Positions 7,643 through 34,297 of a stretch of DNA of 35,429 nucleotides are shown in pieces. A program made the translations under genes and the position numbers. The stretch is from a virus. Within the stretch, counting starts at the first letter, position 1, and each line of letters begins with the position of its first letter. The notes beneath the pieces are model-generated. The model saw only the letters and a list, made by a program, of their open reading frames with translations, was not told where the DNA came from and searched no databases. The stretch spans positions 1 to 35,429 of IMG/VR virus record IMGVR_UViG_3300023174_000388. One strand, given 5' to 3'.

Positions 7643-7650
7643 TCTAAATA
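7643..7650 (+). promoter_or_regulatory. Late promoter TCTAAATA abutting the ATG at 7658
   Basis: TCTAAATA is followed by only 7 bases before the ATG. By T4 geometry, where the octamer occupies -13 to -6, the start site is near 7656, leaving a leader of about 2 bases. No Shine-Dalgarno is present upstream of the ATG. Confidence 0.55.
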
Positions 7651-7657
7651 TTTTTAA

Positions 7658-7939
7658 ATGTTTAGAGGAAATTACAAAAAAACAAATATTGATGGCACTC
7701 CCGTAGGTTATATCTACGGGGATGTCATTTTATATGAAGGTAAATTATATAAAGCAATATTTTCAACATATGAATCCCCTTTTCAAAATTCTGAAACGTG
7801 GGAATATATTGGAAATGGATCTTTATTTTCTTCTCAGACACCACCAATTAATCCAGTTGTAGGCCAGCAATGGGAAAAAAATGGTATTGTGTATACCTAT
7901 TATTATGATGGAAATAATTATAGCTGGGTGCAGTTTTAA
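7658..7939 (+). CDS. Carbohydrate-binding-like fibre module protein
   Basis: The product is 93 residues, with an order typical of short phage fibre modules. The first half, DVILYEGKLYKAIFSTYESP, runs on to an SETWEYIG segment and resembles the CBM5/12 (chitin-binding) pattern of an exposed Tyr-Lys strand and a conserved Trp. The second half, QTPPINPVVGQQWEKNG, runs on to YTYYYDGNNYSWVQF and resembles the 'P.nP..Gd.W.d..t...yv.yd...W.q' module common at the C-terminus of phage tail-fibre and structural proteins. It is probably a surface or receptor-interacting piece of the virion. It overlaps the stop of the convergent gene at 7936 by 4 bases. The ATG sits directly behind a late promoter without a Shine-Dalgarno. 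Confidence 0.55.
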   Translation: MFRGNYKKTNIDGTPVGYIYGDVILYEGKLYKAIFSTYESPFQNSETWEYIGNGSLFSSQTPPINPVVGQQWEKNGIVYTYYYDGNNYSWVQF

Positions 7940-9243
7940 ATAACTATTTGCAAAACCATTTCGGTTTCTCTTTTAAACTTTAAAAATATGGTTGCTGGAG
8001 ATGCTGCAGATTTCAAATATATGAATGATGCACCATCAAATCCCATAACACCATTTAAAAAGTAAGAATCAGTTAATGGTACCGAGCAAGCAGAATTTAT
8101 ATACGGTTCAACCGATGCACCATAAAGTGAAGAATCTGACAAATCCAATTTTAATGTAGGATTTGATAATCTTGTTTGCGAAATATATGAACTATAGTTT
8201 GTTTGCACACCATCTACAATAAGAACATTTGTATTAGTTTGTACTGGTTGTCCATCTATTAAAACTTCTGATGTTACAGTAGTTACTGTAGTTCCTATTT
8301 TTACAAATGAATAATAGTTTATTGAAAGAGACAATCCATCCCAAGAATAAGGATTGTATATATTTTCAAAATTAGATGTTCTATGCGAAGCATACCAATC
8401 ATAATAGTTTGTTGTATCTGCTATTGATCTGCAATATCTTTGATATAAATTTTGATTATTTAAAATCTTTAAAATAGTTCCATTAGAATTTAAAATTTTT
8501 AATAATCCATTAACATTTTTATTTTGTGATAATGTAACAAGATCTGGTACACCACGCATGTAAACATTAACTGTTACCGGAGCAAAATATAAGTTTTCAT
8601 TCGTTACGGTAGATTGATTATTTAAATATACAATTTCACTTCCATTATTTAATTTTAATGGTGAATTAATTTTATATCTAAGAGAATTTGATGTAGATCC
8701 TACGACTTCTAGATATTCTTCATATCCATAATCATTTCCATATATTCCTAAAAATTCAATATTATATGGATCTGTTTTATTTACTTTAGATATAAAATAT
8801 TGTGCAGTTATACCTTTGATTGCAGTATAATTTAAAGGCCCAGAAAAGTTATTGTTTGCATAAACACCATCAACCAAAGATGTCGAATATGTAACTCCAG
8901 TAGCATTTACGTATTGATTAAAAGTTCCAGTAATTCCACTGAGTGTATATGTACCAGCAAAACTTAATTGTTGACCAGTACTTTCAACATAATATGTTCC
9001 ACCAGATACAGCAAAAGTGTTCCCTACAGTCAAAGAACCAAAAAATCTTTTTGTAAATTTTAAATCAGAACTATTTGAAGATGCTGAATAGTCAATAAAA
9101 AAACTATTACCATTTTTATAAATTGTTGGAGAGCTTTCCAACAAACCTTTTGTAAAACAAGGGTCTGCACTATTTCCGACAAATTCGGAAACATATGCAT
9201 TAGTTGACTTTACTAAAGTTAAAAATGTATTTGTATTTGGCAT
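7936..9243 (-). CDS. Beta-rich virion structural or fibre protein
   Basis: The product is 435 residues, rich in Ser, Thr, Asn, Tyr and Gly with few charges, as expected of fibre or decoration proteins. It starts MPNTNTFLTLVKSTNAYVSE and has many alternating hydrophobic strands, such as SFFIDYSASSNSSDLKFTKR and TVTTVTSEVLIDGQPV. It ends in a strand-rich segment, ATIFLKFKRETEMVLQIVI. It lies one base downstream of the 314-residue gene and shares that gene's MPN N-terminus and composition, so the two are probably co-transcribed and assembled together. Its stop codon overlaps that of the convergent gene at 7658. I do not recognise a specific family; a tail-fibre or head-fibre role is inference. 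Confidence 0.6.
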   Translation of the reverse strand: MPNTNTFLTLVKSTNAYVSEFVGNSADPCFTKGLLESSPTIYKNGNSFFIDYSASSNSSDLKFTKRFFGSLTVGNTFAVSGGTYYVESTGQQLSFAGTYTLSGITGTFNQYVNATGVTYSTSLVDGVYANNNFSGPLNYTAIKGITAQYFISKVNKTDPYNIEFLGIYGNDYGYEEYLEVVGSTSNSLRYKINSPLKLNNGSEIVYLNNQSTVTNENLYFAPVTVNVYMRGVPDLVTLSQNKNVNGLLKILNSNGTILKILNNQNLYQRYCRSIADTTNYYDWYASHRTSNFENIYNPYSWDGLSLSINYYSFVKIGTTVTTVTSEVLIDGQPVQTNTNVLIVDGVQTNYSSYISQTRLSNPTLKLDLSDSSLYGASVEPYINSACSVPLTDSYFLNGVMGFDGASFIYLKSAASPATIFLKFKRETEMVLQIVI

Positions 9244-9244
9244 A

Positions 9245-10189
9245 TTATGAGGCGAAATAACTCAATGTCTGTGTTCCACTCTTTGACATGGCATATATCA
9301 TATTGAGATTAGAAACATTGAGGAATACATTTTCTCCTGGTTCTAATTGATATCCATAGCTGGAACCCAATAAAGTTCCACCAAGATAAATTAAATCGGT
9401 GTTTGTTCCAAGTGCTTTTAGATTGACTCCGGCAGCACAAGTAAATCCAGATCCAAGCACAGTAGAAGCTGTCGTCAAAGACAATACGGTTGATCTTACC
9501 GATGTTGGTCTAACTAAACCAAATACAGCTAGAGCATTATAGATGGCATCTAGTGTACCACCCATAACTCCCATTCTGGAGTATATGTTTGTCATTCCAT
9601 TAATAATATTTGTATCGTTAATGCCAACAGTATTTCCTACAGTTACATTGACTGCAGTTGCTCCAGAAAGCCCCACTACAGTTACCGTAGAAGGAATTGT
9701 TGCATTAATGGTTGCGCCAATAACATTTACATTTAAAGCACCATTGGAATAACTTAAAGATTTTCCAGCTTGATCTACTAGACTGGCGTAAATATATGTG
9801 ATTCCATTTGGACCCCATACTGATACAGAATCATTCGTTTTAGATAAGTAACGACCGCCTGTAACTTCTACCTGTGATCCAGTAAAAGTTTTTACATATA
9901 CAGGTGAACCCGTAATACCAGAGGCAAGAACAGTACCAGTTATAGTCAATGGAGTACCACTGGCAATGCCCTGAACACTCATAGGACCGCTAAAACCAGT
10001 TATATTGGCACTTAAAGTGGCTCCAACGGAAACAGGGAATGGGTTGCTGGATGAAACAAGTGTTACGGACCCAGTGACGCCGTATCCTAGTTTAAAAATT
10101 TGAAAATTGGTAGTTATACCAGAAAGTTGAGCAAGATCAGTTGCAACAGAAGCAGTTGTTCCACCAGTTTCGATGATAATGTTTGGCAT
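9245..10189 (-). CDS. Beta-rich virion decoration or fibre protein
   Basis: The product is 314 residues and consists largely of Val/Thr/Gly/Ser strands with repeated 'G.t...T.tvtG.sG' texture. The C-terminal segment, SSYGYQLEPGENVFLNVSNL, runs on to MIYAMSKSGTQTLSYFAS. It resembles the terminal barrel of many phage head-fibre and decoration proteins (Gly-X-X-Leu-X-Pro-Gly-Glu, then a strand with Ile-Tyr-Ala, then Gly-Thr-Gln-X-Leu-X-Tyr). A ribosome-binding site (AGAGGA) precedes the ATG, and a late promoter (CCTAAATA) lies 25 bases upstream on the minus strand. It is the first gene of a two-gene leftward transcript. A surface virion role is well supported by composition, but the exact location is unknown. 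Confidence 0.6.
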   Translation of the reverse strand: MPNIIIETGGTTASVATDLAQLSGITTNFQIFKLGYGVTGSVTLVSSSNPFPVSVGATLSANITGFSGPMSVQGIASGTPLTITGTVLASGITGSPVYVKTFTGSQVEVTGGRYLSKTNDSVSVWGPNGITYIYASLVDQAGKSLSYSNGALNVNVIGATINATIPSTVTVVGLSGATAVNVTVGNTVGINDTNIINGMTNIYSRMGVMGGTLDAIYNALAVFGLVRPTSVRSTVLSLTTASTVLGSGFTCAAGVNLKALGTNTDLIYLGGTLLGSSYGYQLEPGENVFLNVSNLNMIYAMSKSGTQTLSYFAS

Positions 10190-10196
10190 ATGGTCC

Positions 10197-10204
10197 TCTA
10201 AATA
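10197..10204 (+). promoter_or_regulatory. Late-type promoter TCTAAATA toward gp33
   Basis: TCTAAATA lies in the divergent gap and would direct transcription toward gp33 with a start near 10210. It interleaves with the opposite-strand late motif at 10215-10222. The leader to the ATG at 10268 would be about 58 bases. Confidence 0.4.
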
Positions 10205-10214
10205 GATCTAGGAA

Positions 10215-10222
10215 TATTTAGG
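10215..10222 (-). promoter_or_regulatory. Late-type promoter CCTAAATA for the leftward fibre genes
   Basis: The minus strand reads CCTAAATA, 25 bases before the ATG of the 314-residue protein. The predicted start near 10209 leaves a leader of about 19 bases containing the AGAGGA ribosome-binding site. Confidence 0.5.
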
Positions 10223-10267
10223 TCAAATTAATTATTGAAATTAAATATAATGGTGGTAGACTGTATT

Positions 10268-10501
10268 ATGTACATAGACGAATCAGCAAAAGAAAAGTTT
10301 TCTAATAAAGTAATAGAACGAGCTAAATCTACAAAATTATCTTTTATGGATTGTGTTTTAGAACTTTCAGAAGAAATGGGATTGGATCCATCAGCAGCTG
10401 GTAAATTGTTAAGCAAACCAATTGTTGAAAAAATTCAAGCAGAAGCTCAAGATTTGCATTTTATGAAAAAATCAAAAACTAGAAAACTCCCAGTTGACTA
10501 A
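10268..10501 (+). CDS. 33: Late transcription coactivator gp33
   Basis: In T4, gp33 bridges host RNA polymerase and the gp45 sliding clamp to activate late promoters. The match rests on the C-terminal half: LDPSAAGKLLSKPIVEKIQA followed by EAQDLHFMKKS aligns with the T4 gp33 region ending in a GIIEKIQSEA segment, sharing the I.EKIQ.EA core at the same relative place. The position immediately before gp32 also fits related phages. I favour the ATG at 10268 (MYIDESAKEKF, 77 residues), which has GGTGG about 12 bases upstream. An in-frame ATG at 10250 and a TTG at 10235 are alternatives. T4 gp33 is 112 residues and ends in a hydrophobic clamp-binding tail. Here the protein ends TRKLPVD, so that tail is absent or changed. 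Confidence 0.75.
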   Translation: MYIDESAKEKFSNKVIERAKSTKLSFMDCVLELSEEMGLDPSAAGKLLSKPIVEKIQAEAQDLHFMKKSKTRKLPVD

Positions 10502-10507
10502 ACTGGG
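10489..10507 (+). other. RNA hairpin over the gp33 stop codon
   Basis: CCCAGTT (10489-10495) pairs perfectly with AACTGGG (10501-10507) around the loop GACTA, which carries most of the TAA stop. It has no long U-tract, so it may be a weak terminator, a processing site or a 3' stabiliser between gp33 and gp32. Confidence 0.45.
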
Positions 10508-10521
10508 ATTGGTTGTATTAT
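10494..10521 (+). promoter_or_regulatory. Sigma70-type promoter for gp32
   Basis: TTGACT at 10494-10499 is followed after 16 bases by TATTAT at 10516-10521. It would start transcripts near 10528 and allow gp32 to be made before late transcription. The arrangement closely resembles the promoter at 114-141. Confidence 0.5.
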
Positions 10522-10536
10522 AGGTGTAACACTAGG

Positions 10537-10553
10537 CCGAGGTAGAACCTCGG
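10537..10553 (+). promoter_or_regulatory. Leader hairpin next to the gp32 ribosome-binding site
   Basis: CCGAGG (10537-10542) pairs with CCTCGG (10548-10553) around the loop TAGAA. It abuts the purine-rich ribosome-binding region GGGAAAGAAG before the ATG at 10568. T4 gp32 represses its own translation by binding a structured leader, so this hairpin is a candidate autoregulatory element. That function is inferred from position. Confidence 0.5.
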
Positions 10554-10567
10554 GGAAAGAAGATACT

Positions 10568-11425: not shown

Positions 11426-11426
11426 G

Positions 11427-11452
11427 AAAAAGGCCCCTAACGGGGCCTTTTT
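11427..11452. terminator. Bidirectional terminator between gp32 and the leftward baseplate operon
   Basis: A perfect 11-bp stem (AAAAAGGCCCC at 11427-11437 with GGGGCCTTTTT at 11442-11452) closes a TAAC loop. The A and T arms give a U-tract in both directions, so it ends gp32 rightward and the operon of 13860-11452 leftward. It overlaps the TGA stop of the leftward gene by one base. Confidence 0.92.
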
Positions 11453-12066: not shown

Positions 12067-12262
12067 TAAAACATTGGTCCTTGTTGCATACTATTTGTTT
12101 TTATTCTTTCTTCTTCATTATAATCACTTAATAGTTTTGTATAGATTTCTCTTTCCCAAAAATACATTTCTTCTAATTCTTTTAATCTCCAGGAAAAATT
12201 ATTTATTAAGGTAAAATTTGTTTGATAATAATCATACAAATCAAAAAACTTTACCGATAAGT
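12066..12262 (-). CDS. -1 frame extension of gp26 (tail-chaperone-type, possibly gp51-like)
   Basis: The gap between gp26 and the repeat protein is open in the -1 frame. Read from the slippery site it gives YLSVKFFDLYDYYQTNF followed by NFSWRLKELEEMYFWERE and a charged tail ending in a TAA that overlaps the next start. The frame has no plausible start codon or ribosome-binding site near its beginning (the first in-frame ATG is deep inside), but it is continuous with gp26 after a -1 slip on T TTT TTT at 12269-12263. The fusion would be about 279 residues. The Trp-Arg and Trp-Glu-Arg helix resembles the downstream (T) parts of frameshifted G/GT chaperones. In T4 the neighbouring gene is gp51, a hub assembly factor; equating the two is inference. 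Confidence 0.6.
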
Positions 12263-12907
12263 AAAAAAATTTAAAATCCCAGAGACCTCCTTTATTTCAT
12301 TATTAAATTCTATTTCGGCATACAGTTCTGGTTGAGATTTCATAAATTCTTCAGTTTTCAATACAAACGATAAAGGAAGATTATCAATTGTTTCTTTTAA
12401 TTCCTGTGGAACAAACTTATTAACATCATATATTTCATTTTTTACAATTAGTTTTTTGATGCATGATTTTAAAATATCTTCTTTATTTAAAGTTTCTAAA
12501 TTCAATAAATCTTTAATTCTTGGTGTTTCCAATACCACTTTTAAATTTGGTCCAACAATAATTTCTTGTGATTGAATATTATTTTTGGTTTTTAATTCAT
12601 TAATATTAAATTGTTTTTTTGTATCGTTAAAAATAAGTGTAATATATTCCTCTATACTTTTTCCACGTACTTGTAAAAACAAATATTCGGCATCAGCAAT
12701 GCATAAGTCATGAATAACCACATCTTTTGTGCAATTTTTTAATACAGAAACCATAGCAATCAAAGCTAATTTTTTATTGTCTTCTTGCAATACGATTGCA
12801 ATATTTTTAGCATCTTTTACTTTAAATGGAGTAAATTGTACTTTTTGTTTACTAAAAGGTAATTCGGTTGTGTAAGTTGGTAGATAATCGTTTATTAATT
12901 CAAACAT
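12251..12907 (-). CDS. 26: Baseplate hub protein gp26
   Basis: The product is 218 residues (T4 gp26: 208), with the family's N-terminal pattern of a short lead and LPFSKQKVQFTPFKVKDAKN, corresponding to the 'Leu-Pro ... Phe-Thr-Pro-Phe' region of the T4 baseplate-hub family. A helical body with KNIAIVLQEDNKKLALIAMV and a C-terminal EVSGILNFFTYR follow. In T4, gp26 is required for assembling the central hub of the baseplate. Its ATG overlaps the end of the tube-fold gene by 8 bases, indicating coupling. The last codons contain a T TTT TTT heptamer just before the stop, which may direct some ribosomes into the downstream frame. Confidence in the family is good. The exact role (hub subunit or chaperone) is less certain. 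Confidence 0.75.
   Translation of the reverse strand: MFELINDYLPTYTTELPFSKQKVQFTPFKVKDAKNIAIVLQEDNKKLALIAMVSVLKNCTKDVVIHDLCIADAEYLFLQVRGKSIEEYITLIFNDTKKQFNINELKTKNNIQSQEIIVGPNLKVVLETPRIKDLLNLETLNKEDILKSCIKKLIVKNEIYDVNKFVPQELKETIDNLPLSFVLKTEEFMKSQPELYAEIEFNNEIKEVSGILNFFTYR
12263..12269 (-). promoter_or_regulatory. Candidate -1 frameshift slippery heptamer T TTT TTT
   Basis: On the minus strand the zero-frame codons of gp26 read AAT TTT TTT ACT, giving an exact X XXY YYZ heptamer of seven T. It lies 9 bases before the gp26 stop codon. A -1 slip opens a frame that ends exactly at the next gene's start. Seven U allow full re-pairing of both tRNA-Phe anticodons. Confidence 0.6.
12286..12293 (-). 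promoter_or_regulatory. Internal Shine-Dalgarno AAAGGAGG inside gp26
   Basis: A near-perfect anti-16S sequence, AAAGGAGG, occurs inside the gp26 coding region 16 bases before the slippery heptamer, with no usable ATG, GTG or TTG at initiation distance. Such internal sites stimulate -1 frameshifting in the bacterial dnaX gene, usually at 10-14 bases, so the spacing here is slightly long. The stimulatory role is inferred. Confidence 0.45.
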
Positions 12908-13448
12908 ATTTAAAATCCCTATAATTCATTAATACTTGCATAATAGAATACTCATTATTCTTCATCATTGTAAATTCCATTGGTTGTGTTTCCAATGGAT
13001 AAACTTCATAAAATCTTATTTTAGTATTGACATTTCCATTAGGATCTAAAATGTCAACAATCATATTTGTATTTTTTACTAAATCGTCATAATAACCTAT
13101 AGTAAAATTACCACCTTGTCTATAGCCGCTATACAGGGTATCAAACCATTTATTAAATAGCTTTAATATATGGTTATCATTTGTTACTGGAAATGCCATA
13201 AATACGCCACCTACAAATTTTTGACTTCTGGGAACAGCTCTACCAGAACCAAAGCCAGTTAAGTTGTCTGCCACGGCATCTAAAGCTCTTGCACCAATAG
13301 TAACATTCAAAGCTTGAATATCTGTAGGGCCACCTAAACCAATTCCTCTGGGAAGATTTTCAAAATATACTTGGTATCGATTGCTTCGCTGCAATCCACC
13401 ATGCCGCGAAAAGTAATCTTTAATATTGGTTATTGAATTATTTGGCAT
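12900..13448 (-). CDS. Tail-tube-fold protein (gp54/gp19-like)
   Basis: The product is 182 residues. Its start, SITNIKDYFSRHGGLQRSNRYQVYF, follows the tail-tube pattern 'I.dFk..f..Gg.raNrf.v.i' seen in gp19 at 26461. Later blocks (AFPVTNDNHILKLFNKWFDTL, then IVDILDPNGNVNTKIRFYEVYP and QPMEFTMMKNNEYSIMQVLM) match the middle and C-terminal strands of tube proteins. It sits between gp4 and gp26 in a baseplate operon, so it is more likely a tube initiator such as gp54, or a hub ring, than the main tube. It overlaps the end of gp4 by 11 bases and the start of gp26 by 8. Confidence 0.6.
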   Translation of the reverse strand: MPNNSITNIKDYFSRHGGLQRSNRYQVYFENLPRGIGLGGPTDIQALNVTIGARALDAVADNLTGFGSGRAVPRSQKFVGGVFMAFPVTNDNHILKLFNKWFDTLYSGYRQGGNFTIGYYDDLVKNTNMIVDILDPNGNVNTKIRFYEVYPLETQPMEFTMMKNNEYSIMQVLMNYRDFKYV

Positions 13449-13860
13449 TGGAAAAAAGTTCTTTTTCTGTTAATATTTTAAATTCCATATTGTTTTTTTC
13501 ACAATATGACTTGGCAGCATTCCATTTGGCAGTGTTGATTATCCAAGTATATGTTTCTTTTTTAGAAGCATTTTCTTTTAGATATGTTTGTTTTTTTGGT
13601 TTTATTTCAACCATCCAAATTTCTTTGTTATTGTTTGTTTTAAACTCTATTAAAAAATCAGGATAATAATTGTGAATCTTTTTATCTATTGGACTCATAT
13701 ATGGGATTGCTATTTCTTCTGATGACCATTTTGTTATTTGATCATTTTCATCTAAAAATTTGCAAACATGTCTTTCCCATAATGAACGGCATGTAATAGA
13801 AGAAACATCACCTATATATTTTTTAGGATTTTTTGGTAAATATTTGGTTCTGTACGCCAT
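13438..13860 (-). CDS. 4: Head completion nuclease gp4
   Basis: The product is 140 residues (T4 gp4, also called gp50/65: 150). The start MAYRTKYLPKNPKKYIGD and the RSLWERHVCKFLD segment match the T4 family (KYIPKNKEKY...RSSWERKFC). A PD-(D/E)XK nuclease core is visible: Glu29 in the first helix, Asp68 in YYPDFLIEF, and Glu85-x-Lys87 in MVEIKPKKQ. KWSSEEIAIPY before it is also typical. In T4, gp4 acts on packaged heads before tail joining. It is the first gene of the leftward operon. The ATG lies 6 bases behind a late promoter CATAAATA and lacks a Shine-Dalgarno, so a leaderless message is likely. Confidence 0.92.
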   Translation of the reverse strand: MAYRTKYLPKNPKKYIGDVSSITCRSLWERHVCKFLDENDQITKWSSEEIAIPYMSPIDKKIHNYYPDFLIEFKTNNNKEIWMVEIKPKKQTYLKENASKKETYTWIINTAKWNAAKSYCEKNNMEFKILTEKELFSNAK

Positions 13861-13866
13861 TAAAAA

Positions 13867-13874
13867 TATTTATG
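13867..13874 (-). promoter_or_regulatory. Late promoter CATAAATA for the gp4 operon
   Basis: The minus strand reads CATAAATA, ending 6 bases before the gp4 ATG. The predicted start at about 13861 leaves a leader of 1 base. It is back to back with the gp48 late promoter 5 bases away. Confidence 0.7.
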
Positions 13875-13879
13875 AAAAT

Positions 13880-13887
13880 TATAAATA
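13880..13887 (+). promoter_or_regulatory. Late promoter TATAAATA for gp48
   Basis: An exact TATAAATA ends 7 bases before the gp48 ATG at 13895, so the predicted start at about 13893 gives a leader of about 2 bases. No Shine-Dalgarno lies upstream. Confidence 0.75.
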
Positions 13888-13894
13888 TTGATAT

Positions 13895-14680
13895 ATGGCC
13901 TTTCTTCAATATCCTTTAGGTTCTTATGCCCGAGACCAAGTTGGTTGGATCAGTTTTTATGTTGCTCCCTATTCATTACTTAGTAGGCAAAGAAGACCAG
14001 CTGACATTAGAGGGTTTCCCGCTCAAGTTATAAGACTTCCTATGCCAAAAGATCCAGGTTATCAGGTAGCACACGAATTTGGTGTATCTAATGACAATCC
14101 TATAGCACCTGTAATGACTGCAGCTGGATTAAGAAATAGTGGAGGTTTGGGTAATCTTGCTTCGCGTCTACTGCAACCAGCATTTTTCTATTATGAAAAA
14201 ACATTTGCAACTTCTACTTATCGCAGATTTAGCAATGTAACAGAACTTACCATGACTTCAGAAGGAAGAAAACAATATTTTTTCCAATATATAATGGTTC
14301 CAAAAAATGCTAATGAAGCTAACCAAATTGACCAAATTGTTGGAACATTTTATAAATGTTCTTATCCACAAGTTGCATCCAATTTGCCCGAAAGATCTTA
14401 TCCTCAAAATTTGTGGGCATTTAGTATGGAAGGATTGGATGGTCAAGAAATATCTGGTGACTTTTTAGGAAGACCTCTAACAATGGTATTGAAAACAGTA
14501 ATTGTAAAAAGAAATGATGAAATTGATCCTATAATGAGATTTACTCCATCTGGACATTCAAATTTAACTATGCTGGGTTTAGTTTTTCAAGAGTTTGAAA
14601 CTGGAACGTATGATCCAAATGAACCAAATGGAGGTCAGATACTTTCCAAGTCCGAAATCGCTGCTAAGTATTTGAGGTAA
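13895..14680 (+). CDS. 48: Baseplate tail-tube cap gp48
   Basis: The product is 261 residues (T4 gp48: 364). Gp48 sits on the baseplate hub and starts tube polymerisation. The diagnostic part is residues 110-215, with RRFSNVTELTMTSEGRKQYF, then an MVPKNANEANQIDQIV segment, and LGRPLTMVLKTVIVKRND. This is the tube-fold core shared by gp48 and gp54: strand, long helix with 'A..I..Iv..f', strand. The N-terminus (MAFLQYPLGSYARDQVGWIS) is typical of gp48. It starts a rightward baseplate operon, is followed after 3 bases by gp53, and has a late promoter abutting its ATG. Confidence 0.85.
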   Translation: MAFLQYPLGSYARDQVGWISFYVAPYSLLSRQRRPADIRGFPAQVIRLPMPKDPGYQVAHEFGVSNDNPIAPVMTAAGLRNSGGLGNLASRLLQPAFFYYEKTFATSTYRRFSNVTELTMTSEGRKQYFFQYIMVPKNANEANQIDQIVGTFYKCSYPQVASNLPERSYPQNLWAFSMEGLDGQEISGDFLGRPLTMVLKTVIVKRNDEIDPIMRFTPSGHSNLTMLGLVFQEFETGTYDPNEPNGGQILSKSEIAAKYLR

Positions 14681-14683
14681 CAA

Positions 14684-15532: not shown

Positions 15533-15541
15533 GTGTGAGAC

Positions 15542-17566: not shown

Positions 17567-17575
17567 GGATTAAAA

Positions 17576-18301: not shown

Positions 18302-18305
18302 TCTT

Positions 18306-18313
18306 CATAAATA
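18306..18313 (+). promoter_or_regulatory. Late promoter CATAAATA abutting gp25
   Basis: CATAAATA ends 6 bases before the gp25 ATG at 18320; the predicted start at 18319 leaves a 1-base leader. No Shine-Dalgarno is visible. Confidence 0.7.
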
Positions 18314-18319
18314 TTATGA

Positions 18320-18697
18320 ATGGTTAAAACTAAAGATTTCAATATTTTGTTACAAAAAGTTTCTACAAGTGCTAATTTAAAAGATTTTGGCATGGTTAGT
18401 GACTATAACATGTACGTTCAACAAATTGAAAATGTATGTAGAACTCAAAAAGGAGAGCATTTAAATCATAGATTTGGATGTAACTTATTTGATTATTTAT
18501 TTGATAGACAAGCAAATCGTCATATCATTGAAACAGTTTTGGCTTCATCAATACAATCAAATATTTCAACATTAACAGAAGTAAAAGCATCTATGGTTTA
18601 TTCGGATGATACGTTAATGCGATTTAATATTAATTTTTACATCCGCGATGGTTTAAAAACTCAAAGCGCCTTTTGCACAATAGAGGTTAATCTTTAA
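18320..18697 (+). CDS. 25: Baseplate wedge protein gp25
   Basis: The product is 125 residues (T4 gp25: 132). Gp25 is the sheath-initiating wedge protein conserved in contractile tails and related secretion systems. The central block VCRTQKGEHLNHRFGCNLFD followed by YLFD is the family's hallmark (arginine-glycine-glutamate loop, then 'FG.dl...lF'). RHIIETVLASSIQSN and the strand pair with RFNINFYIRDG complete the fold. The stop overlaps the gp6 ATG (TAATG), indicating coupled translation. The ATG lies directly after a late promoter with no Shine-Dalgarno. Confidence 0.92.
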   Translation: MVKTKDFNILLQKVSTSANLKDFGMVSDYNMYVQQIENVCRTQKGEHLNHRFGCNLFDYLFDRQANRHIIETVLASSIQSNISTLTEVKASMVYSDDTLMRFNINFYIRDGLKTQSAFCTIEVNL

Positions 18698-20400: not shown

Positions 20401-20850
20401 ATGTTTAAAAAAATTATGATGTTTGCGGCATCAATTGCCTCACGCGGTTTTAATAATAATGTAGTTGATGTACCAACAAAACAATTAAGAGTTTTGTCTT
20501 GTTATGGTGATAACATACAAGTTGGGCAATGCCCATATTTAAAAAAGAGCAGTCATTCTGACTATTTTTATTGTTCTGGATGTGGATGTGGTGATAAAAA
20601 ACAAACATGGTTGTTACAAGGTGATGGAGAATATGCAAAACTGGATTATCCCGTATTGAATTGTCCCATGAAAATGCCTGGTTTTACCAATTATGATCCA
20701 AATTTTTATAATGATACCATAAAAGCACATAAGACTATGGTAGAAGATTATGATCCTGAAAAACTTCAATATATTCAGGTTACAATAAATCGTAATCAAG
20801 AAAATGAAAAAATATTTGATGAATATAACAAACTGTTTAAGAATTCATAA
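20401..20850 (+). CDS. Hypothetical protein with a zinc-finger-like Cys cluster
   Basis: The product is 149 residues from the ATG at 20401; a GTG start at 20392 would add three residues and overlap the previous gene. A conserved-looking cluster CYGDNIQVGQCPYL...YCSGCGCGDKKQTW places five Cys and one His within about 40 residues, followed by a further Cys in VLNCPMKMPG. This pattern fits a zinc- or iron-binding knuckle. The C-terminal half is acidic and mixed (VEDYDPEKLQYIQVTINRNQ). It is the last gene of the baseplate operon and precedes the neck genes. I do not recognise a named family, and a structural metal-binding role is inference. Confidence 0.6.
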   Translation: MFKKIMMFAASIASRGFNNNVVDVPTKQLRVLSCYGDNIQVGQCPYLKKSSHSDYFYCSGCGCGDKKQTWLLQGDGEYAKLDYPVLNCPMKMPGFTNYDPNFYNDTIKAHKTMVEDYDPEKLQYIQVTINRNQENEKIFDEYNKLFKNS

Positions 20851-20853
20851 ATA
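20846..20853 (+). promoter_or_regulatory. Late promoter CATAAATA abutting gp13
   Basis: CATAAATA overlaps the previous gene's stop and ends 8 bases before the gp13 ATG at 20862. The predicted start near 20859 leaves about 3 bases of leader, with no Shine-Dalgarno. Confidence 0.7.
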
Positions 20854-20861
20854 TTTTTATA

Positions 20862-21695
20862 ATGAGCACAAGTATAACCACTCGCCAAGAGTTTATAGAC
20901 TACACTTTCCGTTCTTTGGGTGCCCCAGTAATCCAAATAAACATTGATCCACAGCAAGCTGAAGATCGTCTAGATGAAGCTTTGGATTATATGCAGGATC
21001 GTCATTTTGATTTTAATCAAAGAGCTCTGTTTGTAAAAGAAATAACATCGGATGATATAAATAAACAATATTTTGATGTATCTACATTTGGTAGTGCTAT
21101 TGGCGCACAATTAAAAACAAAAAGTGATGGTTCTACTGCTTATTGGCCACTTGCATCAGATATAGTTACTGTTAACAAAGCATATCCAACAGGAAATGCA
21201 GTTGGTGATTATATATTTGATTTAAGATATCAATTAACTTTATTTGACTTCTTTGGTTTATATATGAACCAAACAGGGTTTTCAACAGGACCTATGGGGT
21301 CTTATATTGAAGGTATGAGTTATTTGCAACTTGTCAATGATGTATTCAATTACCCATCTGCCTTTACTTATAGCAAAACTACTACCAGACTTTTCTTAGA
21401 AACAGATTATACAAAATTATCTGCAAGCCAATTTTTATTAATTGAAGCATATGTTCGTATAGATCCAGAATTATATCCATTAGTTTGGAATGATCGTATA
21501 TTTAAAAGATATTATTCGGCATTATTAAAAAAACAATGGGCACAAAATTTAATGAAATTTTCTGGTGTTCCGTTGCCCGGTGGAGCACAATTAAATGCTG
21601 GTGCAATAATGCAAGATGCTGTTCGTGAACTTGCAGAAATTGATACTTCATTGCTAAAGACAATGGAACTCCCCGTAGATCCCTTTATAGGATAA
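20862..21695 (+). CDS. 13: Neck protein gp13
   Basis: The product is 277 residues (T4 gp13: 309). Gp13 and gp14 seal the packaged head and form the neck that receives the tail. The N-terminus TRQEFIDYTFRSLGAPVIQI, continuing QQAEDRLDEALDYMQDRHFD, is the diagnostic gp13 motif ('TR.eF.dY.lR.LGaPvi.in.d..Q..dri.dal......H.d'). The C-terminal helix set, FKRYYSALLKKQWAQNLMKF, and the end ELPVDPFIG follow. It starts the block of neck, packaging and tail genes, with gp14 one base after its stop. Confidence 0.92.
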   Translation: MSTSITTRQEFIDYTFRSLGAPVIQINIDPQQAEDRLDEALDYMQDRHFDFNQRALFVKEITSDDINKQYFDVSTFGSAIGAQLKTKSDGSTAYWPLASDIVTVNKAYPTGNAVGDYIFDLRYQLTLFDFFGLYMNQTGFSTGPMGSYIEGMSYLQLVNDVFNYPSAFTYSKTTTRLFLETDYTKLSASQFLLIEAYVRIDPELYPLVWNDRIFKRYYSALLKKQWAQNLMKFSGVPLPGGAQLNAGAIMQDAVRELAEIDTSLLKTMELPVDPFIG

Positions 21696-23042: not shown

Positions 23043-23043
23043 T

Positions 23044-25117: not shown

Positions 25118-25122
25118 AAAAA

Positions 25123-25130
25123 TCTAAATA
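25123..25130 (+). promoter_or_regulatory. Late-type promoter TCTAAATA before the sheath gene
   Basis: TCTAAATA lies 22 bases before the gp18 ATG. The predicted start near 25136 leaves a leader of about 17 bases containing AAAAGG, so this promoter has a normal ribosome-binding site, unlike the abutting ones. Confidence 0.6.
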
Positions 25131-25152
25131 ATTAAGATAAAAAAGGTTCAAA

Positions 25153-26454
25153 ATGCCCAATCCATCTCTAAGTTCCTTTACAAATAGCAACCAGTATCAA
25201 ACTGAAACCGCACTCAATCCTCTTATTGCTGGTATTATTGCCGGTTCTACGTTCAATCAACCAGCTTTTAGCGGCCAAAATGGTGCTGCAGAAAAGGATC
25301 CAGGTGGACTTTTTGGATGGTTAGTATACTCCAGAGCAACAAAATATTCACCCGCTCGCGGAACCACCGCAGACACATACATTGCTTATACCAATCCCAA
25401 TGATCTTGTATCCGATCTTAACCAATTGGGTGGTATTACATACTGCTTAGTTTCTGATACAACCCAAGGTGGTACTTACGGAATATTTAAAAATGGTGGT
25501 GCAGGATACCTTAGTTCTTTGACTCCCGGCACAGATTTCCTCTATGCCGTCAATTATCTGGCATACGGTGGTATTCTTGTAGTTGCTGGTACTACTGGTG
25601 GATTAAACAAATATGAAACTGACAACAATACCACTTTGGATGTATTCTTTGGTAGCACAGCAAGTTCTGGAGCAGTTACATGGTTATTGAATAAACCATA
25701 TACAACTGCCATATTCCCATCTGTCGCAGACAGTACTGGAACAGTTGGATCTGGATATTCTATGGCACCTTATGCTACTTTATTACCCGGAGCCCCAGTA
25801 AGTGCTGGATCAACTTTTGCGAGTAGAATGTTTAATGTATGTGGATTGAAAAATGTAACAGATTTAGGAACAGATTCTGTTGCAGCAAACACAAAAATTA
25901 CATATACAATATCTGCTGTATCAGATGTAGCTGGCGCATTTAATAGAACAAAAGATAGAAATGAACTGTATCTAAGCGTTGCTGGATTGAGTCGTTCTAC
26001 TGTTCTTAATGGATCCATTTCAAATTCTATTAAATGGGATGATATTACAACCAAAAACACTTTAAGAACAAATAGAGTAAATTTCTTTGTCACCTATACA
26101 CCCCCGTTCTTGGGCCAAGATTTAGTTGGTGCTACTGCGGGAACTTCAACAACAATCTTAATAGATGAAAGAATTGGACCTGCCAGATTAAAGATGGCAG
26201 TCACAAATGATGTAACAAACATTACATTGAAATATTTGTATCTAGTAAACAACGCAACAACAAGAAGTAATTTGAGCTCAGAAATTTCTGTATATCTTGA
26301 AAAATATGCAGCATATCTTGACAATACAAAAACTCAAATTATCTGTGACTCTACAAATAATATTGACAATGCACAAGCATTGAATGTAACTGTAATACTA
26401 AAACCAATATTGAGTACCGAATCACTATCTGTAACCGTAAATCTAGTTGCTTAA
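25153..26454 (+). CDS. 18: Tail sheath protein gp18 (short form)
   Basis: The product is 433 residues, against 659 in T4 gp18. Identity rests on the C-terminal sheath domain: TLKYLYLVNNATTRSNLSSE, followed by a helix ISVYLEKYAAYLDN, then CDSTNNIDNAQALNVTVILK, and the final strand SLSVTVNLVA, in the order used by contractile sheaths for the interlocking arms. Its place directly before gp19 confirms it. The outer decorative domains of T4 gp18 appear to be missing, leaving a minimal sheath like those of simpler myophages. It has its own late promoter. Confidence 0.88.
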   Translation: MPNPSLSSFTNSNQYQTETALNPLIAGIIAGSTFNQPAFSGQNGAAEKDPGGLFGWLVYSRATKYSPARGTTADTYIAYTNPNDLVSDLNQLGGITYCLVSDTTQGGTYGIFKNGGAGYLSSLTPGTDFLYAVNYLAYGGILVVAGTTGGLNKYETDNNTTLDVFFGSTASSGAVTWLLNKPYTTAIFPSVADSTGTVGSGYSMAPYATLLPGAPVSAGSTFASRMFNVCGLKNVTDLGTDSVAANTKITYTISAVSDVAGAFNRTKDRNELYLSVAGLSRSTVLNGSISNSIKWDDITTKNTLRTNRVNFFVTYTPPFLGQDLVGATAGTSTTILIDERIGPARLKMAVTNDVTNITLKYLYLVNNATTRSNLSSEISVYLEKYAAYLDNTKTQIICDSTNNIDNAQALNVTVILKPILSTESLSVTVNLVA

Positions 26455-26460
26455 TAACAT

Positions 26461-27000
26461 ATGCCATCACCATCAAAAAATAGTATAACAAATTTTAAAC
26501 AAGGTTTCAATGGTGGAACCAGGGCTAATCGTTTTGAAGCTCGCATAGTTGATGGCTGGCCTGGAATGGCTCCAGATGCAAACGATACAACATTTAAAAT
26601 AGTTGCTGCACAACTTCCAATGGCACAGTTAAATACTATTACTATTCCATATAGAGGAAGACCTGTTAATTATGCTGGAGATAGACAATATTCTCCGTGG
26701 CCAATTACAGTATATGACGACAGCAATAAAAATAATTTATGGAGAGCATTTAATAGGTGGAAAGAACTATTAGATGGACATAAAACTCACAAAAGCCAAG
26801 ACTATACTTATGCAACTTTGCAAAAAACATGGCGAATCAAACAATATGATAATAATGGAAACAGTATTCGGGAAATTCAATTGCAAAAATGTTGGCCATC
26901 TGTAGTAAGTCAAATAGATTTAAACATGGGTTCCACTGATTTGGTTTCATTTACAGTGCAATTAGTCTTTGATAAGCTTAATTTTATCAAAGGAATATAA
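26461..27000 (+). CDS. 19: Tail tube protein gp19
   Basis: The product is 179 residues (T4 gp19: 163). It polymerises as hexameric rings to form the inner tube. The N-terminus SITNFKQGFNGGTRANRFEA is the family's signature, followed by a loop ending QLPMAQLNTITIPYRGRPVN. Next come PWPITVYDDSNKNNLWRAFN with a helix, and a C-terminal LQKCWPSVVSQIDLNMGSTD strand set. It is preceded by the sheath gene and followed after 2 bases by a paralogue. Confidence 0.93.
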   Translation: MPSPSKNSITNFKQGFNGGTRANRFEARIVDGWPGMAPDANDTTFKIVAAQLPMAQLNTITIPYRGRPVNYAGDRQYSPWPITVYDDSNKNNLWRAFNRWKELLDGHKTHKSQDYTYATLQKTWRIKQYDNNGNSIREIQLQKCWPSVVSQIDLNMGSTDLVSFTVQLVFDKLNFIKGI

Positions 27001-27002
27001 TA

Positions 27003-27611
27003 ATGACAATCACTGATTTTAAAACAAATTTTCAAGGTGGTTCACGCGCAAACAGATTTTACATTGAAGGAGATATTCCAACATTTTCTTCGGTAGCTGG
27101 TTCTGTAACTTCTAAAGCAGCATTTACTAAATTTCATGTAAGATCTACTATGATTCCTCAATTATCAAGTAAGACTCTTTCTTATGATTATTTTGGAAGA
27201 AAATATCATTATCCTGGTGAAAAAGATTACGGAACATGGTCTTTTACTGTATTAGATGACAATACATCAATAGAAGGCGATTTGTGGAAAAAATTTCATC
27301 AATGGCAAGATGCTATTAATAACCACGATAATAATAAATCTTTTCAGGCAACTGGAGTAGCTGGCACTGCCACTGCAGATAGTGCCAAATATAAAGCAAT
27401 AAATTGGAGAATTAACCATTTACATCTTGATGGCGAATCTCAAAATTCTTTAAAAACTTTTATCATGCATGGGTGCTGGCCAACTGCAATCCAACCAATA
27501 AGCTTTAATATGGCCAATCCAAATTCGTTAAATAGCTTTGTGGTTATAATGGTTTATGATTACATTGAACTTCTTGACAGTTCTGGTACATATATAACCA
27601 AACAAAATTAA
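27003..27611 (+). CDS. Second tail-tube protein (gp19 paralogue)
   Basis: The product is 202 residues. It shares the order of gp19: TITDFKTNFQGGSRANRFYI, then STMIPQLSSKTLSYDYFGRK, TWSFTVLDDNTSIEGDLWKK with HQWQDAIN, and MHGCWPTAIQPISFNMANPN with a final strand. Divergence and an inserted Gly/Ala loop (VAGTATADSAKYK) set it apart from gp19. It may form a special ring at the baseplate or neck end, or mix with gp19. It lies between gp19 and gp20, in the same direction. Confidence 0.85.
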   Translation: MTITDFKTNFQGGSRANRFYIEGDIPTFSSVAGSVTSKAAFTKFHVRSTMIPQLSSKTLSYDYFGRKYHYPGEKDYGTWSFTVLDDNTSIEGDLWKKFHQWQDAINNHDNNKSFQATGVAGTATADSAKYKAINWRINHLHLDGESQNSLKTFIMHGCWPTAIQPISFNMANPNSLNSFVVIMVYDYIELLDSSGTYITKQN

Positions 27612-27631
27612 ATTTATATTAGGAAAACACA

Positions 27632-31113: not shown

Positions 31114-31125
31114 AAATTAATTTAC

Positions 31126-31133
31126 TCTAAATA
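31126..31133 (+). promoter_or_regulatory. Late-type promoter TCTAAATA before gp22
   Basis: TCTAAATA is 25 bases before the gp22 ATG. The predicted start near 31139 leaves a leader of about 20 bases carrying AAGGA. It would give the scaffold and capsid genes extra expression. Confidence 0.6.
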
Positions 31134-31158
31134 ATAAAAGATCAAGGATCATTGACAA

Positions 31159-32193
31159 ATGCAAAAGAAAAACAACAAAAAGTCTCTATCAGAAGCCGTC
31201 TCCGATGCCATGGGCAAGGGAGTCGTTGACATGACCGGTAAGTCCGATATGGACATGAGTGGTCGTGGATCACAATTTTTTTCTCCAATCGTTTCAGGTA
31301 TGCCTGCTACTGTAGCAGGAATTGGTAAGCCCGGCGTTCCCGCTACCATGTCCGCTATGGTAGGTTCTAAGGGTTCTGCCCAAGCTTCTCACGAAGAAGA
31401 AGAAACCACTGAAGAAGAATCCGCCGAACATGAAGAAGGTGGAGAAGAAGAAAACGTTGAGGAAGTTGATGAACAATTCCGCCATGCTATTTCTCAAATT
31501 TTGGGTGAAGAAGTTTCTCTTTCGCTCGTAAATCAAATTGAAGCTATTTTTGAAGCCGCTGTCAAAGATCGTGTAGAAAAGAATCTTACCAGCATCTTGG
31601 TTGAACTTGATGAAGGTGTTCAATCTCACTTGAATAACGTCACCGAAACCTTGGTCGAAAAGGTTGACGATTATCTAGATTATGTAGTCGAAGAGTGGAT
31701 GACTGAGAACGCCGTAGCAGTTGAACAAGGCATCAAGACTCAAATTGCCGAAAACTTTATTGGTGGTCTAAAGAATCTTTTTGAGAATCACTACATTGAT
31801 GTTCCTGCCGAGAAGTACAATGTTCTTGATGAACTCTATTCTCAAAATCGCGATCTAGAGACTCGTCTTAATCAAAGCATTAATGAGAACATGAATCTTC
31901 GTAAGGAAGTTTCTCTCACTGAATGCGCAGGAATTTTTGTTGCTGAAACCAGAGATCTTGCTGATACTCAAGTTTCCAAGCTTCAAAATTTGATGGAAAA
32001 CGTAAAGTTTACCACTCCCGAAGAGTATCGTGAAAAGCTCGTTGCCATTAAGGAAAATTACATGCCCGGATCAAAGCCTGCACCAGCCCGCGTTGTTGAT
32101 GCAGTCGATACATTCTCCAAGCCAACAAACGTACCCGGAACCTTGGTTGAAGGTTACGTCAGTGCCCTTGGTAGAATGAATAAGAAAGTATAA
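31159..32193 (+). CDS. 22: Prohead scaffold protein gp22
   Basis: The product is 344 residues (T4 gp22: 269). It is the main internal scaffold, removed by gp21 during maturation. A polar N-terminal 75 residues precede an acidic stretch (EEEETTEEESAEHEEGGEEE) reminiscent of the acidic core protein gp67. The conserved scaffold region follows: FRHAISQILGEEVSLSLVNQ, then VEKVDDYLDYVVEEWMTENA, FIGGLKNLFENHYIDVPAEK and LDELYSQNRDLETRLNQSIN, which is long coiled-coil. Codons are GC-richer than in neighbours, consistent with high dosage. It lies directly before gp23 and has its own late promoter. Confidence 0.93.
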   Translation: MQKKNNKKSLSEAVSDAMGKGVVDMTGKSDMDMSGRGSQFFSPIVSGMPATVAGIGKPGVPATMSAMVGSKGSAQASHEEEETTEEESAEHEEGGEEENVEEVDEQFRHAISQILGEEVSLSLVNQIEAIFEAAVKDRVEKNLTSILVELDEGVQSHLNNVTETLVEKVDDYLDYVVEEWMTENAVAVEQGIKTQIAENFIGGLKNLFENHYIDVPAEKYNVLDELYSQNRDLETRLNQSINENMNLRKEVSLTECAGIFVAETRDLADTQVSKLQNLMENVKFTTPEEYREKLVAIKENYMPGSKPAPARVVDAVDTFSKPTNVPGTLVEGYVSALGRMNKKV

Positions 32194-32204
32194 ACGCAAA
32201 ATTT

Positions 32205-32212
32205 ACTAAATA
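32205..32212 (+). promoter_or_regulatory. Late-type promoter ACTAAATA before gp23
   Basis: ACTAAATA ends 28 bases before the gp23 ATG. The predicted start near 32218 leaves a leader of about 23 bases carrying the strong ribosome-binding site ATAGGAGAG. This is the expected arrangement for the most abundant protein. Confidence 0.65.
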
Positions 32213-32240
32213 ATTTAACTCAATAGGAGAGTATTACAAA

Positions 32241-33662
32241 ATGCAATTTCAAGAAAACACACCATATGATATTTTAACTGAGAAATGGAATCCCGTCTTA
32301 AACCATGACGCGCTTCCAGAAATCAAAGATGATTACCGTAAGAAGGTCACCGCTGTCCTTCTTGAGAACCAAGAACAAGTCCTTCGTAGCCAACATCTCT
32401 ATGAAGATATGAATGGTAACAGCAACCTTGGCGGTCCCTCCAGCTCTACTGGTTACAACACCGGCCAAGTTTCTGGTTACGATCCCGTTCTTATCAGCCT
32501 AGTTCGTCGCGCCATGCCAAATCTCATGGCTTATGACATCTGCGGCGTTCAACCAATGACCGCTCCAACTGGCTTGATCTTTGCCATGCGTGCAAATTAT
32601 CAAGGTAGCGGTTACGCCAATGCTTACTCTGGCACAACCTACACCGAAGCCATGTTCCAAGAGCCACAACCATCCTTCGGTGGTTGCGGTTGGACTCTAG
32701 GTACATTCGGTGGTGCTAATAATGGTAATGGTCTCAGCGCTGGCTGGAACTATGCTAGCGGTGTTAAGCCATCTTCGGCTGCTAACCTTGCTACCATGCG
32801 TGGTATCCTCACCAATTTCGGTGAAGGTATTGGTGGTGCAGCAGGTGGTGCATATGCTACTTGGAACCAAATGTCCTTCTCAATCGACCGTGTTGCTGTA
32901 CAAGCTCGTACACGCGCTCTAAGCAGCAACTACACCGTCGAACTCGCTCAAGACCTCAAGGCCGTTCACGGTCTAGATGCCGAAGCAGAGTTGGCCAACC
33001 TACTTAGCACCGAAATTCTTGCCGAAATCAACCGTGAAATCGTCAAGACCATTTACTACGTTGCTAAAGCCGGTTCACAACAAAATGACTTGACTTCTGC
33101 TGGTACTTATAATCTTGATGATGACTCAGACGGTCGTTGGTCTGCAGAACGTTTCCGTGGCCTCAGCTTCCAAATCGAGCGCGAATGCAATGCTCTCGCT
33201 AAGGAAACCCGCCGTGGTAAGGGTAACTTCATCATCTGCGATAGCGATACCGCAGCAGCCCTCGCCATGTCTGGCTTCATGAGCCTCAGCCCCGGAATTG
33301 CTCCTCAACTAAATGTTGATGACACCCAAAGCACCTTTGCCGGTATCCTTAATGGCAAGATCAAGGTCTACATCGATCCATATTCACCACTCGGCTACAA
33401 CTACTTCGTTGCTGGCTATAAGGGTGAATCTGCTTACGATGCAGGTCTCTTCTACTGCCCATACGTTCCGCTACAAATGGTACGCGCAGTTGATCCCAAT
33501 ACTTTCCAACCCCGTATTGCGTTCAAGACCCGCTATGGTGTAGTTGCTAACCCCTTCGTTATCAACACCAGCAAACTACCTGACGCTGACAACCTAACTG
33601 CTGGTCTCAACCAGTACTACCGTTTCACCGCAGTAACCAACCTCCACGGCAACACCATCTGA
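32241..33662 (+). CDS. 23: Major capsid protein gp23
   Basis: The product is 473 residues (T4 gp23: 521). It builds the shell. The HK97-type T4 signature LVRRAMPNLMAYDICGVQPM followed by TAPTGLIFAMRANY is exact for the family, as are the internal ELAQDLKAVHGLDAEAELAN with ILAEINREIVKTI, and RGKGNFIICDSDTAAALAMS. The N-terminal 55 residues are probably removed by gp21. LYE followed by Asp at residues 53-56 fits the Leu-X-Glu rule, and LPE at 25-27 is an alternative. Codon use is the most GC-rich of the window. The gene ends before two hairpins, the second a strong terminator. Confidence 0.97.
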   Translation: MQFQENTPYDILTEKWNPVLNHDALPEIKDDYRKKVTAVLLENQEQVLRSQHLYEDMNGNSNLGGPSSSTGYNTGQVSGYDPVLISLVRRAMPNLMAYDICGVQPMTAPTGLIFAMRANYQGSGYANAYSGTTYTEAMFQEPQPSFGGCGWTLGTFGGANNGNGLSAGWNYASGVKPSSAANLATMRGILTNFGEGIGGAAGGAYATWNQMSFSIDRVAVQARTRALSSNYTVELAQDLKAVHGLDAEAELANLLSTEILAEINREIVKTIYYVAKAGSQQNDLTSAGTYNLDDDSDGRWSAERFRGLSFQIERECNALAKETRRGKGNFIICDSDTAAALAMSGFMSLSPGIAPQLNVDDTQSTFAGILNGKIKVYIDPYSPLGYNYFVAGYKGESAYDAGLFYCPYVPLQMVRAVDPNTFQPRIAFKTRYGVVANPFVINTSKLPDADNLTAGLNQYYRFTAVTNLHGNTI

Positions 33663-33670
33663 TAGGTGAC

Positions 33671-33687
33671 CGTGTGTAAGACACACG
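33671..33687 (+). other. Hairpin after gp23
   Basis: CGTGTGT (33671-33677) pairs with ACACACG (33681-33687) around the loop AAG. It lies between the gp23 stop and the terminator hairpin and may stabilise the abundant gp23 transcript or aid termination. Confidence 0.5.
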
Positions 33688-33715
33688 AAGACCTCCCCAG
33701 AAATGGGGAGGTCTT
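33688..33715 (+). terminator. Terminator after gp23
   Basis: A perfect 12-bp stem (AAGACCTCCCCA at 33688-33699 with TGGGGAGGTCTT at 33704-33715) is closed by a GAAA tetraloop and followed by a T-rich tract. It ends the head-gene transcript. Confidence 0.92.
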
Positions 33716-33723
33716 TCTTTTTG

Positions 33724-33731
33724 GATAAATA
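33724..33731 (+). promoter_or_regulatory. Late promoter GATAAATA abutting the tube-fold gene
   Basis: GATAAATA is followed by five T and the ATG at 33737. By T4 geometry the start site falls on the A of the ATG itself, leaving no leader. The site follows the gp23 terminator, so this gene needs its own promoter. Confidence 0.7.
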
Positions 33732-33736
33732 TTTTT

Positions 33737-34297
33737 ATGCCAACGAATCCATGCGCTGACAACATCAATATTCTGTACAACAATCAATTTAAATTGGTTT
33801 TTGGTCGCGGTACTAATCAAATGGAGTTAATGTGTCAGCGGGCAAATATTCCTGGAATCAAATTAAATGATCAACCACAGCCAACCACTTTAGGAACTAC
33901 AATACCAATACCTACTATGGGAGTTGTGTTTGAACCTTTGAATGTTGAATTTTTAGTAGATTCAAATCTATCAAACTGGAGAAGTATTTATTCGTGGATT
34001 CGTAATTTATCAAATATTGCGGATGATTCTACATACAATGTAGATTATCAAGACTGGCATTATAAAGCAAGTCTATATGTATATGATCCCCTGTTTAAAT
34101 TTAACACTGCACAATCTCAACAAGAGTGCAATAATAATATTTTATTTACTATAAATTTTAAACATATTATTCCCGTAGCATTGTCAGGAATAAATTTCCA
34201 ATCAGATTCGGCAGATATCATACCCCAAAAAGCCTCATGTTCATTTAAATATTCTCATTATGAGATGACGCCAGACGCTCCAGGAAATTTGGGTTAA
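33737..34297 (+). CDS. Tail-tube-fold protein after gp23
   Basis: The product is 186 residues. It begins NINILYNNQFKLVFGRGTNQ and continues LMCQRANIPGIKLNDQPQPT. The middle block, VVFEPLNVEFLVDSNLSNWR followed by SIYSWIRNLSN, and the final strand and loop, FKHIIPVALSGINFQSDSA, match the layout of gp19-type tube proteins (strand, 'P...l......t......i...f..d.nl..W..iy.Wi'). It is separate from the main tube genes and has its own leaderless-type late promoter, so a special ring or baseplate use is likely. Its stop overlaps that of the convergent gene (TTAA). Similar proteins are annotated as tail tube in T4-like cyanophages. Confidence 0.65.
   Translation: MPTNPCADNINILYNNQFKLVFGRGTNQMELMCQRANIPGIKLNDQPQPTTLGTTIPIPTMGVVFEPLNVEFLVDSNLSNWRSIYSWIRNLSNIADDSTYNVDYQDWHYKASLYVYDPLFKFNTAQSQQECNNNILFTINFKHIIPVALSGINFQSDSADIIPQKASCSFKYSHYEMTPDAPGNLG

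Follow-up and report, generated by a model that had tools for sequence, protein, structure and literature searches.

The late promoters of phage T4 carry an octamer that covers positions -13 to -6 (PMC1524935) and lies about one helical turn upstream of the transcription start site (PMC2988020), and leaderless initiation in mycobacteria has RTG at the start site as its necessary and sufficient signal (PMC4633059). Both T4-like late promoters and leaderless initiation are well established, and leaderless messages of phages are usually regarded as scattered oddities. Here, we analyzed a 35,429-base IMG/VR virus record (hereafter, the window), whose structural genes are those of a T4-like phage (gp32, gp26, tail-tube-like genes, gp4, gp48, gp53, gp6, gp13 to gp23 and a gp3-like gene) and in which six late-promoter octamers stand directly in front of a start codon. 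On sequence grounds, we consider it likely, with a probability of about 0.85, that the late messages of gp4, gp48, gp25, gp13, gp3 and the gene at 7658 are leaderless and arise from T4-type late promoters placed at the start codon. A search of the open literature for leaderless late messages of T4-like phages found none described; since most subscription papers lay outside this search, the novelty of the arrangement is not certain.

An earlier note on this DNA had placed six octamers 5–8 bases before an ATG, all of them lacking a Shine-Dalgarno (SD) motif. All six were recovered as NMTAAATA octamers, with spacers of 7, 6, 7, 6, 8 and 5 bases in map order, ATG as the start codon and no SD at any of the six sites. 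The start sites that the note had proposed, 0–3 bases before the ATG by the T4 octamer rule, were also reproduced, with computed leaders of 2, 1, 2, 1, 3 and 0 nucleotides (nt) and an A at the predicted first transcribed base (+1) in 6/6 cases. Each ATG is the first ATG, GTG or TTG that follows a stop codon, so that a start further upstream is impossible for all six. The sites are the following:

7643..7660, plus strand: late octamer TCTAAATA (7643-7650), spacer 7, ATG at 7658 of a 93-residue protein with no assigned function; predicted 5'-AAAUG, 2-nt leader.
13858..13874, minus strand: late octamer CATAAATA (13874-13867), spacer 6, ATG at 13860 of gp4 (head closure); predicted 5'-AAUG, 1-nt leader.
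13880..13897, plus strand: late octamer TATAAATA (13880-13887), spacer 7, ATG at 13895 of gp48 (tail tube cap); predicted 5'-AUAUG, 2-nt leader.
18306..18322, plus strand: late octamer CATAAATA (18306-18313), spacer 6, ATG at 18320 of the gp25-like gene; predicted 5'-AAUG, 1-nt leader.
20846..20864, plus strand: late octamer CATAAATA (20846-20853), spacer 8, ATG at 20862 of gp13 (head-tail adaptor); predicted 5'-AUAAUG, 3-nt leader.
33724..33739, plus strand: late octamer GATAAATA (33724-33731), spacer 5, ATG at 33737 of the gp3-like gene; predicted 5' end exactly at the AUG, 0-nt leader.

The promoters of gp4 and gp48 are arranged back to back within a 34-bp intergenic space. With regard to the homology said to fix several of these starts, the names of gp4, gp13 and gp48 were supported by hidden Markov model (HMM) or pairwise matches, while that of gp25 came from synteny and HMM matches below threshold. 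The gene at 33737 belongs to the tail-tube family (27% to gp3 of phage HTVC008M), and a single relative, with a spacer of 6, was found for the gene at 7658. All octamers conform to N[AC]TAAATA upstream of late structural genes, as in T4-type late promoters, and a homologue of the late sigma factor gp55 was present in 8/8 clade contigs tested, the window being too short a fragment to show it. As side observations on these genes, the phrog_45 tail-tube family is represented by four separate window genes (26461-27000, 27003-27611, 12900-13448 and 33737-34297), of which the adjacent pair is gp19-like, and gp4 (13438-13860, minus strand) has matches to PD-(D/E)XK endonuclease models, including TnsA-like ones (Pfam PF08722, E = 4e-22).

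In order to place these sites in a comparative context, approximately 240 related loci, which total 2.57 Mb and in part overlap, were retrieved with gp48, gp20, gp14 and gp23, and the distance from the octamer was recorded in them for ATGs opening reading frames of at least 60 codons. The resulting distribution had two peaks. Spacers of 5, 6, 7 and 8 were found 124, 33, 18 and 16 times, respectively, with only 8 cases in total at 0–4, and a second peak covered 16–31, the few spacers of 9–15 leaving a near-empty gap in between; none of ten control octamers gave a comparable peak in the same loci. ATG made up 195/204 starts at spacers 5–9, versus 160/365 at background distance. Orthologous starts were then located by tblastn in a set that included a few reference phages, the nearest octamer was measured, and a spacer of 5–9 was classed as leaderless-type. 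This class comprised gp4 in 26/28, gp48 in 26/26, gp25 in 40/40, gp13 in 46/49 and gp3 in 61/62 orthologues (199/205 in total), all starting with ATG, with an SD in 0/199 and with predicted leaders of 0–4 nt. Leaderless late messages are thereby strongly predicted for the clade as a whole. In addition, two contigs of about 136 kb contained 15 and 16 octamer-ATG pairs, respectively, in which the spacer was exactly 5 and the frame stayed open for 40 codons or more, and the class therefore extends past the structural module.

These data also bear on chance in an AT-rich genome, to which we assign a negligible probability. The earlier note had proposed a comparison with shuffled sequence. A dinucleotide shuffle that disregarded open reading frames (ORFs) produced on average 3.0 octamer-ATG pairs and up to 10 in 300 shuffles, versus 8 observed, and is thus weak on its own, so that the case is carried by the ORF-anchored and comparative tests. 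When the 29 octamers were placed at random against the real gene starts of the window, a mean of 0.058 sites and a maximum of 3 in 20,000 placements were obtained, versus the 6 observed; 14 other permutations of TAAATA reached at most 2 sites in the window, and, given its 15 octamers located 0–40 nt upstream of a start, six such sites had P = 0.002. Moreover, nearly every relative carries the arrangement at identical genes, and the orthologue table by itself already refutes chance. AT richness as the cause was ruled out by the control octamers, the permuted hexamers and the random placement.

The octamer was likewise found further upstream of other late genes of the window:

25123..25155, plus strand: late promoter of gp18, TCTAAATA, spacer 22, 17-nt leader, weak AAGG motif.
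31126..31161, plus strand: late promoter of gp22, TCTAAATA, spacer 25, AAGGA.
32205..32243, plus strand: late promoter of gp23, ACTAAATA, spacer 28, AGGAG.
34960..34986, minus strand: late promoter of the 34962 gene, GATAAATA, spacer 16, predicted 11-nt leader with GGAGGG at its beginning.
6703..6726, plus strand: late promoter of gene 6724, GATAAATA, spacer 13, intermediate, with a predicted 8-nt leader and a GGAG that straddles +1.

The assignment of longer leaders with ribosome-binding sites to these five genes was borne out for four of them (gp18, gp22, gp23 and the 34962 gene), with leaders of 11–26 nt and SD-like motifs within the predicted transcript, the motif of gp18 being weak, and had to be dropped for gene 6724. 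Among the relatives, gp18 (58/58), gp22 (51/51), gp23 (59/64) and the 34962 gene (53/53) were leadered. An SD accompanied gp22 in 51/51, gp23 in 63/64 and the 34962 gene in 53/53 cases; for gp18, a strict motif list caught 20/58, AAGG-type motifs being frequent. Operon-internal genes almost never had an octamer. Protein identity among relatives is roughly 55–85%, and the spacing classes are nevertheless kept. As the class is constant for each gene across relatives, the two classes, which are mutually exclusive, belong to particular genes, and the two kinds of late message suggested at first are upheld at clade level by the two-peaked spacing, its edge at 5, the conservation gene by gene, the exclusive use of ATG and the lack of SD.

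Where transcription would begin is a matter of analogy with T4, and the late polymerase might not start at octamer+6, in which case the messages would have ordinary leaders or begin within the gene. The +1 rule is indeed borrowed from T4, and yet several features converge on this position in both classes and make a different start very unlikely. A purine occupies octamer+6 in 85% of leadered promoters and, among leaderless-type ones, in 75% at spacer 6, 94% at spacer 7 and 100% at spacers 8–9. The SD of leadered genes begins at or downstream of the predicted +1, and in many copies of the 34962 gene, including that of the window, the SD itself (GGAGGG) would open the message. The spacing edge lies at 5, because a shorter spacer would delete the A of the AUG from a message starting at +1, and the gap between the classes corresponds to leaders that are too long for leaderless initiation and too short to contain an SD. 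An upstream start, in turn, would require DNA melting within or before the octamer. Taken together, the purine at +6, the SD placement, the edge at 5 and the near-empty gap indicate that translation probably uses the octamer's own transcript as its template.

With spacers this rich in T, and given that SD-independent translation occurs in some hosts, TAAATA and its spacer could alternatively be read not as a promoter but as a translation-initiation element in the form of an AT-rich, unstructured start region. We regard this as highly improbable, since the same genomes carry the identical octamer 16–31 nt ahead of late genes that have an SD, it fits the gp55 consensus of T4-like phages and the phages encode gp55, internal genes lack it, and permuted AT-rich hexamers do not show such spacing.

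A further feature of the window concerns the supply of message from upstream genes:

33688..33722, plus strand: intrinsic terminator of the gp23 operon, with a 12-bp stem, a GAAA loop and a T-rich tail, ending just 5' of the gp3 octamer.

The region 33663-33720 had z = -6.4, and a terminator-like hairpin preceded gp3 in 54/57 relatives versus 0 in shuffles. Terminator, late octamer, 5-nt spacer and ATG thus form a compact unit (33688-33739) between gp23 and gp3, which is kept in the clade, and the gp23 message should stop ahead of gp3 because the terminator is strong. This bears on the possibility that the octamers are late promoters while the proteins come mostly from longer readthrough messages, the adjacent promoter being redundant or its RNA poorly translated. 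Readthrough is common in T4 late transcription, and gp25 and gp13 sit behind same-strand genes, with no terminator detected between these genes and either of them. However, translation from longer messages would tolerate spacers of 0–4 as well as 5–8, and the former are nearly absent; the ATGs have no SD usable on a longer message; gp4 and gp48 are divergent in relatives, with 27–38 bp between their start codons and two back-to-back octamers; and gp3 is shielded by its terminator. We therefore judge readthrough as the main source of these proteins unlikely.

Leaderless messages from start-codon promoters thus remain the preferred explanation, with leaderless initiation as the probable main route of translation, and several points weigh against it. 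The +1 used for the clade and for HTVC008M is a prediction carried over from the T4 rule. A few extra 5' bases can weaken leaderless initiation (PMC4633059), and some leaders here are predicted at 1–4 nt. The absence of an SD is not peculiar to the leaderless class, since it is also missing in some genes without octamer (e.g., 19782, SD in 0/46), and gp13 and gp25 are not insulated, so that readthrough may contribute there. Finally, a portal search of the genome collection for the host of the clade returned no relative, and the capacity of that host for leaderless translation is assumed.

According to the model that we propose, gp55-dependent T4-type late promoters would fire 0–3 nt upstream of the start codon's A, with the start in most relatives falling directly on this base, and the resulting messages would be translated through recognition of the 5'-AUG (70S/fMet-tRNA-type initiation). 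A small number of other late genes, gp18, gp22 and gp23 among them, would have an identical promoter located further upstream, and their transcripts would include a short leader and an SD. A likely reason for the arrangement may be the compactness of promoter-start units in streamlined genomes; another may be an output of low-copy neck and baseplate proteins below that of capsid, scaffold and sheath. Neck, baseplate and tail-completion proteins of low copy number make up the leaderless set; capsid, scaffold and sheath, which in T4 are present in far more copies, head the leadered one. Leaderless initiation as a regulatory device for lower or condition-dependent protein levels is nonetheless a tentative and rather doubtful proposal: it would fit the gene list and the gp23-gp3 terminator, but space saving would be an equally good reason, and T4 makes the low-copy counterparts of these genes from SD leaders.

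Some clade contigs showed additional features. Two of them, G001 (L424-L430) and G002 (L431-L437), each have more than 20 octamer-ATG pairs at spacers 5–9, and several of the genes concerned encode N-termini such as MKSFKNFLVE or MLSFKQYLIE, reminiscent of the peptides that target T4 internal head proteins to the capsid; paralogues with beginnings like MDYLTNYYKNLSEQLQ also occur there. ARAGORN predicted a transfer-messenger RNA gene in G001, a 137-kb contig (L429:2244-2643, tag ANIKAAPMRMAA), together with about ten tRNAs.

A megablast search against 50,697 phage records gave no match, and hence no cultured near relative. The comparison with described phages was made at the level of promoters and orthologous genes. 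The clade shares with T4 the N[AC]TAAATA octamer, the AT-rich stretch downstream of it, its association with late structural genes and a gp55 homologue. It differs in that octamers in the 50-kb late region of T4 lie 12–35 nt upstream of real starts, nearly always with an SD, and none was found there 5–8 nt before an ORF start. The Aeh1-type variant (CTAAATA) shows that C for A at -12 is tolerated (PMC1524935), as it is in the clade, which, unlike Aeh1, mixes A and C within one genome; nothing on leaderless starts was found in that paper. No comparable class was present in T4 (late region), S-ShM2, P-TIM40, DLP6, Cr30 or phiM12, and the whole P-HM2 genome had five exact matches to the pattern, of which one falls at an annotated start. 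Cyanophages and methylophages (S-ShM2, P-TIM40, P-HM2, Melnitz) have the same octamer and a broadly similar gene order, but in cyanophages gp3 and gp13 have leaders or no octamer.

The closest parallel was found in phages of SAR11, an abundant ocean bacterium. HTVC008M has 13 octamer-5 nt-ATG sites genome-wide, gp3 among them, a gp13 spacer of 8, equal to that of the window, and leadered gp18, gp19, gp20, gp21 and gp23. Its gp4 was set aside as a clean orthologous case owing to an uncertain start, the first methionine of the window protein aligning to its residue 15, and no usable pairwise match across clades was obtained for gp25 and gp48, which leaves gp3 and gp13 as the basis for comparing the clades. 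Among 50 environmental SAR11-type phages, 41 had a leaderless-type gp3 (with a spacer of exactly 5 in 39), and a terminator preceded gp3 in 33/50. In contrast to the window clade, only gp3 is widely leaderless-type in SAR11 myophages, gp13 being leadered in most relatives and in Mosig, and their spacer motif is GTAGT versus TTTTT. Octamers abutting start codons may explain why late-promoter prediction failed in a survey of SAR11 myophages (PMC7029224), and the arrangement could assist in correcting the annotation of start codons.

In Melnitz-type phages, which belong to the SAR11-type branch, the gp3 unit of terminator, octamer, 5 nt and ATG persists as an out-of-frame relic, with the gp3 start 17–20 nt further on, behind an SD. 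Such relics were seen in Melnitz-type and related phages (L252:37694-37745, L331 near 9793, and L393 upstream of gp3). The host of Melnitz is a methylotroph, and a host change has been proposed (PMC9004378); the relic starts, from few sequences, hint that the initiation mode may follow the host. An alphaproteobacterial host was discarded as a sufficient cause, as Cr30 (Caulobacter) and phiM12 (Sinorhizobium) are leadered. Ribosomal protein bS21 is encoded by HTVC008M, Mosig and Melnitz (L261-L263) and was not found in eight window-clade contigs, which are incomplete, or in T4, and is thus no general requirement.

In a portal tree, cyanophages, DLP6/Cr30 and SAR11-type phages form a group that excludes the window clade, which comprises 33 rows with a support of 100. 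Two gains of the leaderless class, or one gain with several losses, are both possible on this quick tree with long branches. It is conceivable, if rather speculative, that two aquatic T4-like lineages independently turned defined late virion genes strictly leaderless, with terminator-promoter-AUG units decoupling low-copy tail and neck parts from the highly expressed capsid message and an initiation mode that sets virion stoichiometry and, as the methylophage relic suggests, shifts with the host. The predicted messages resemble the leaderless mRNAs of mycobacteria and Escherichia coli in their 5'-terminal AUG and their lack of a leader and an SD. Those, however, derive from host genes and host sigma factors, whereas here a promoter class of the best-studied phage family holds a fixed position at the start codon of particular virion genes, each gene keeping its own arrangement, in a large uncultured clade and in SAR11 phages, which share the gp3 arrangement.

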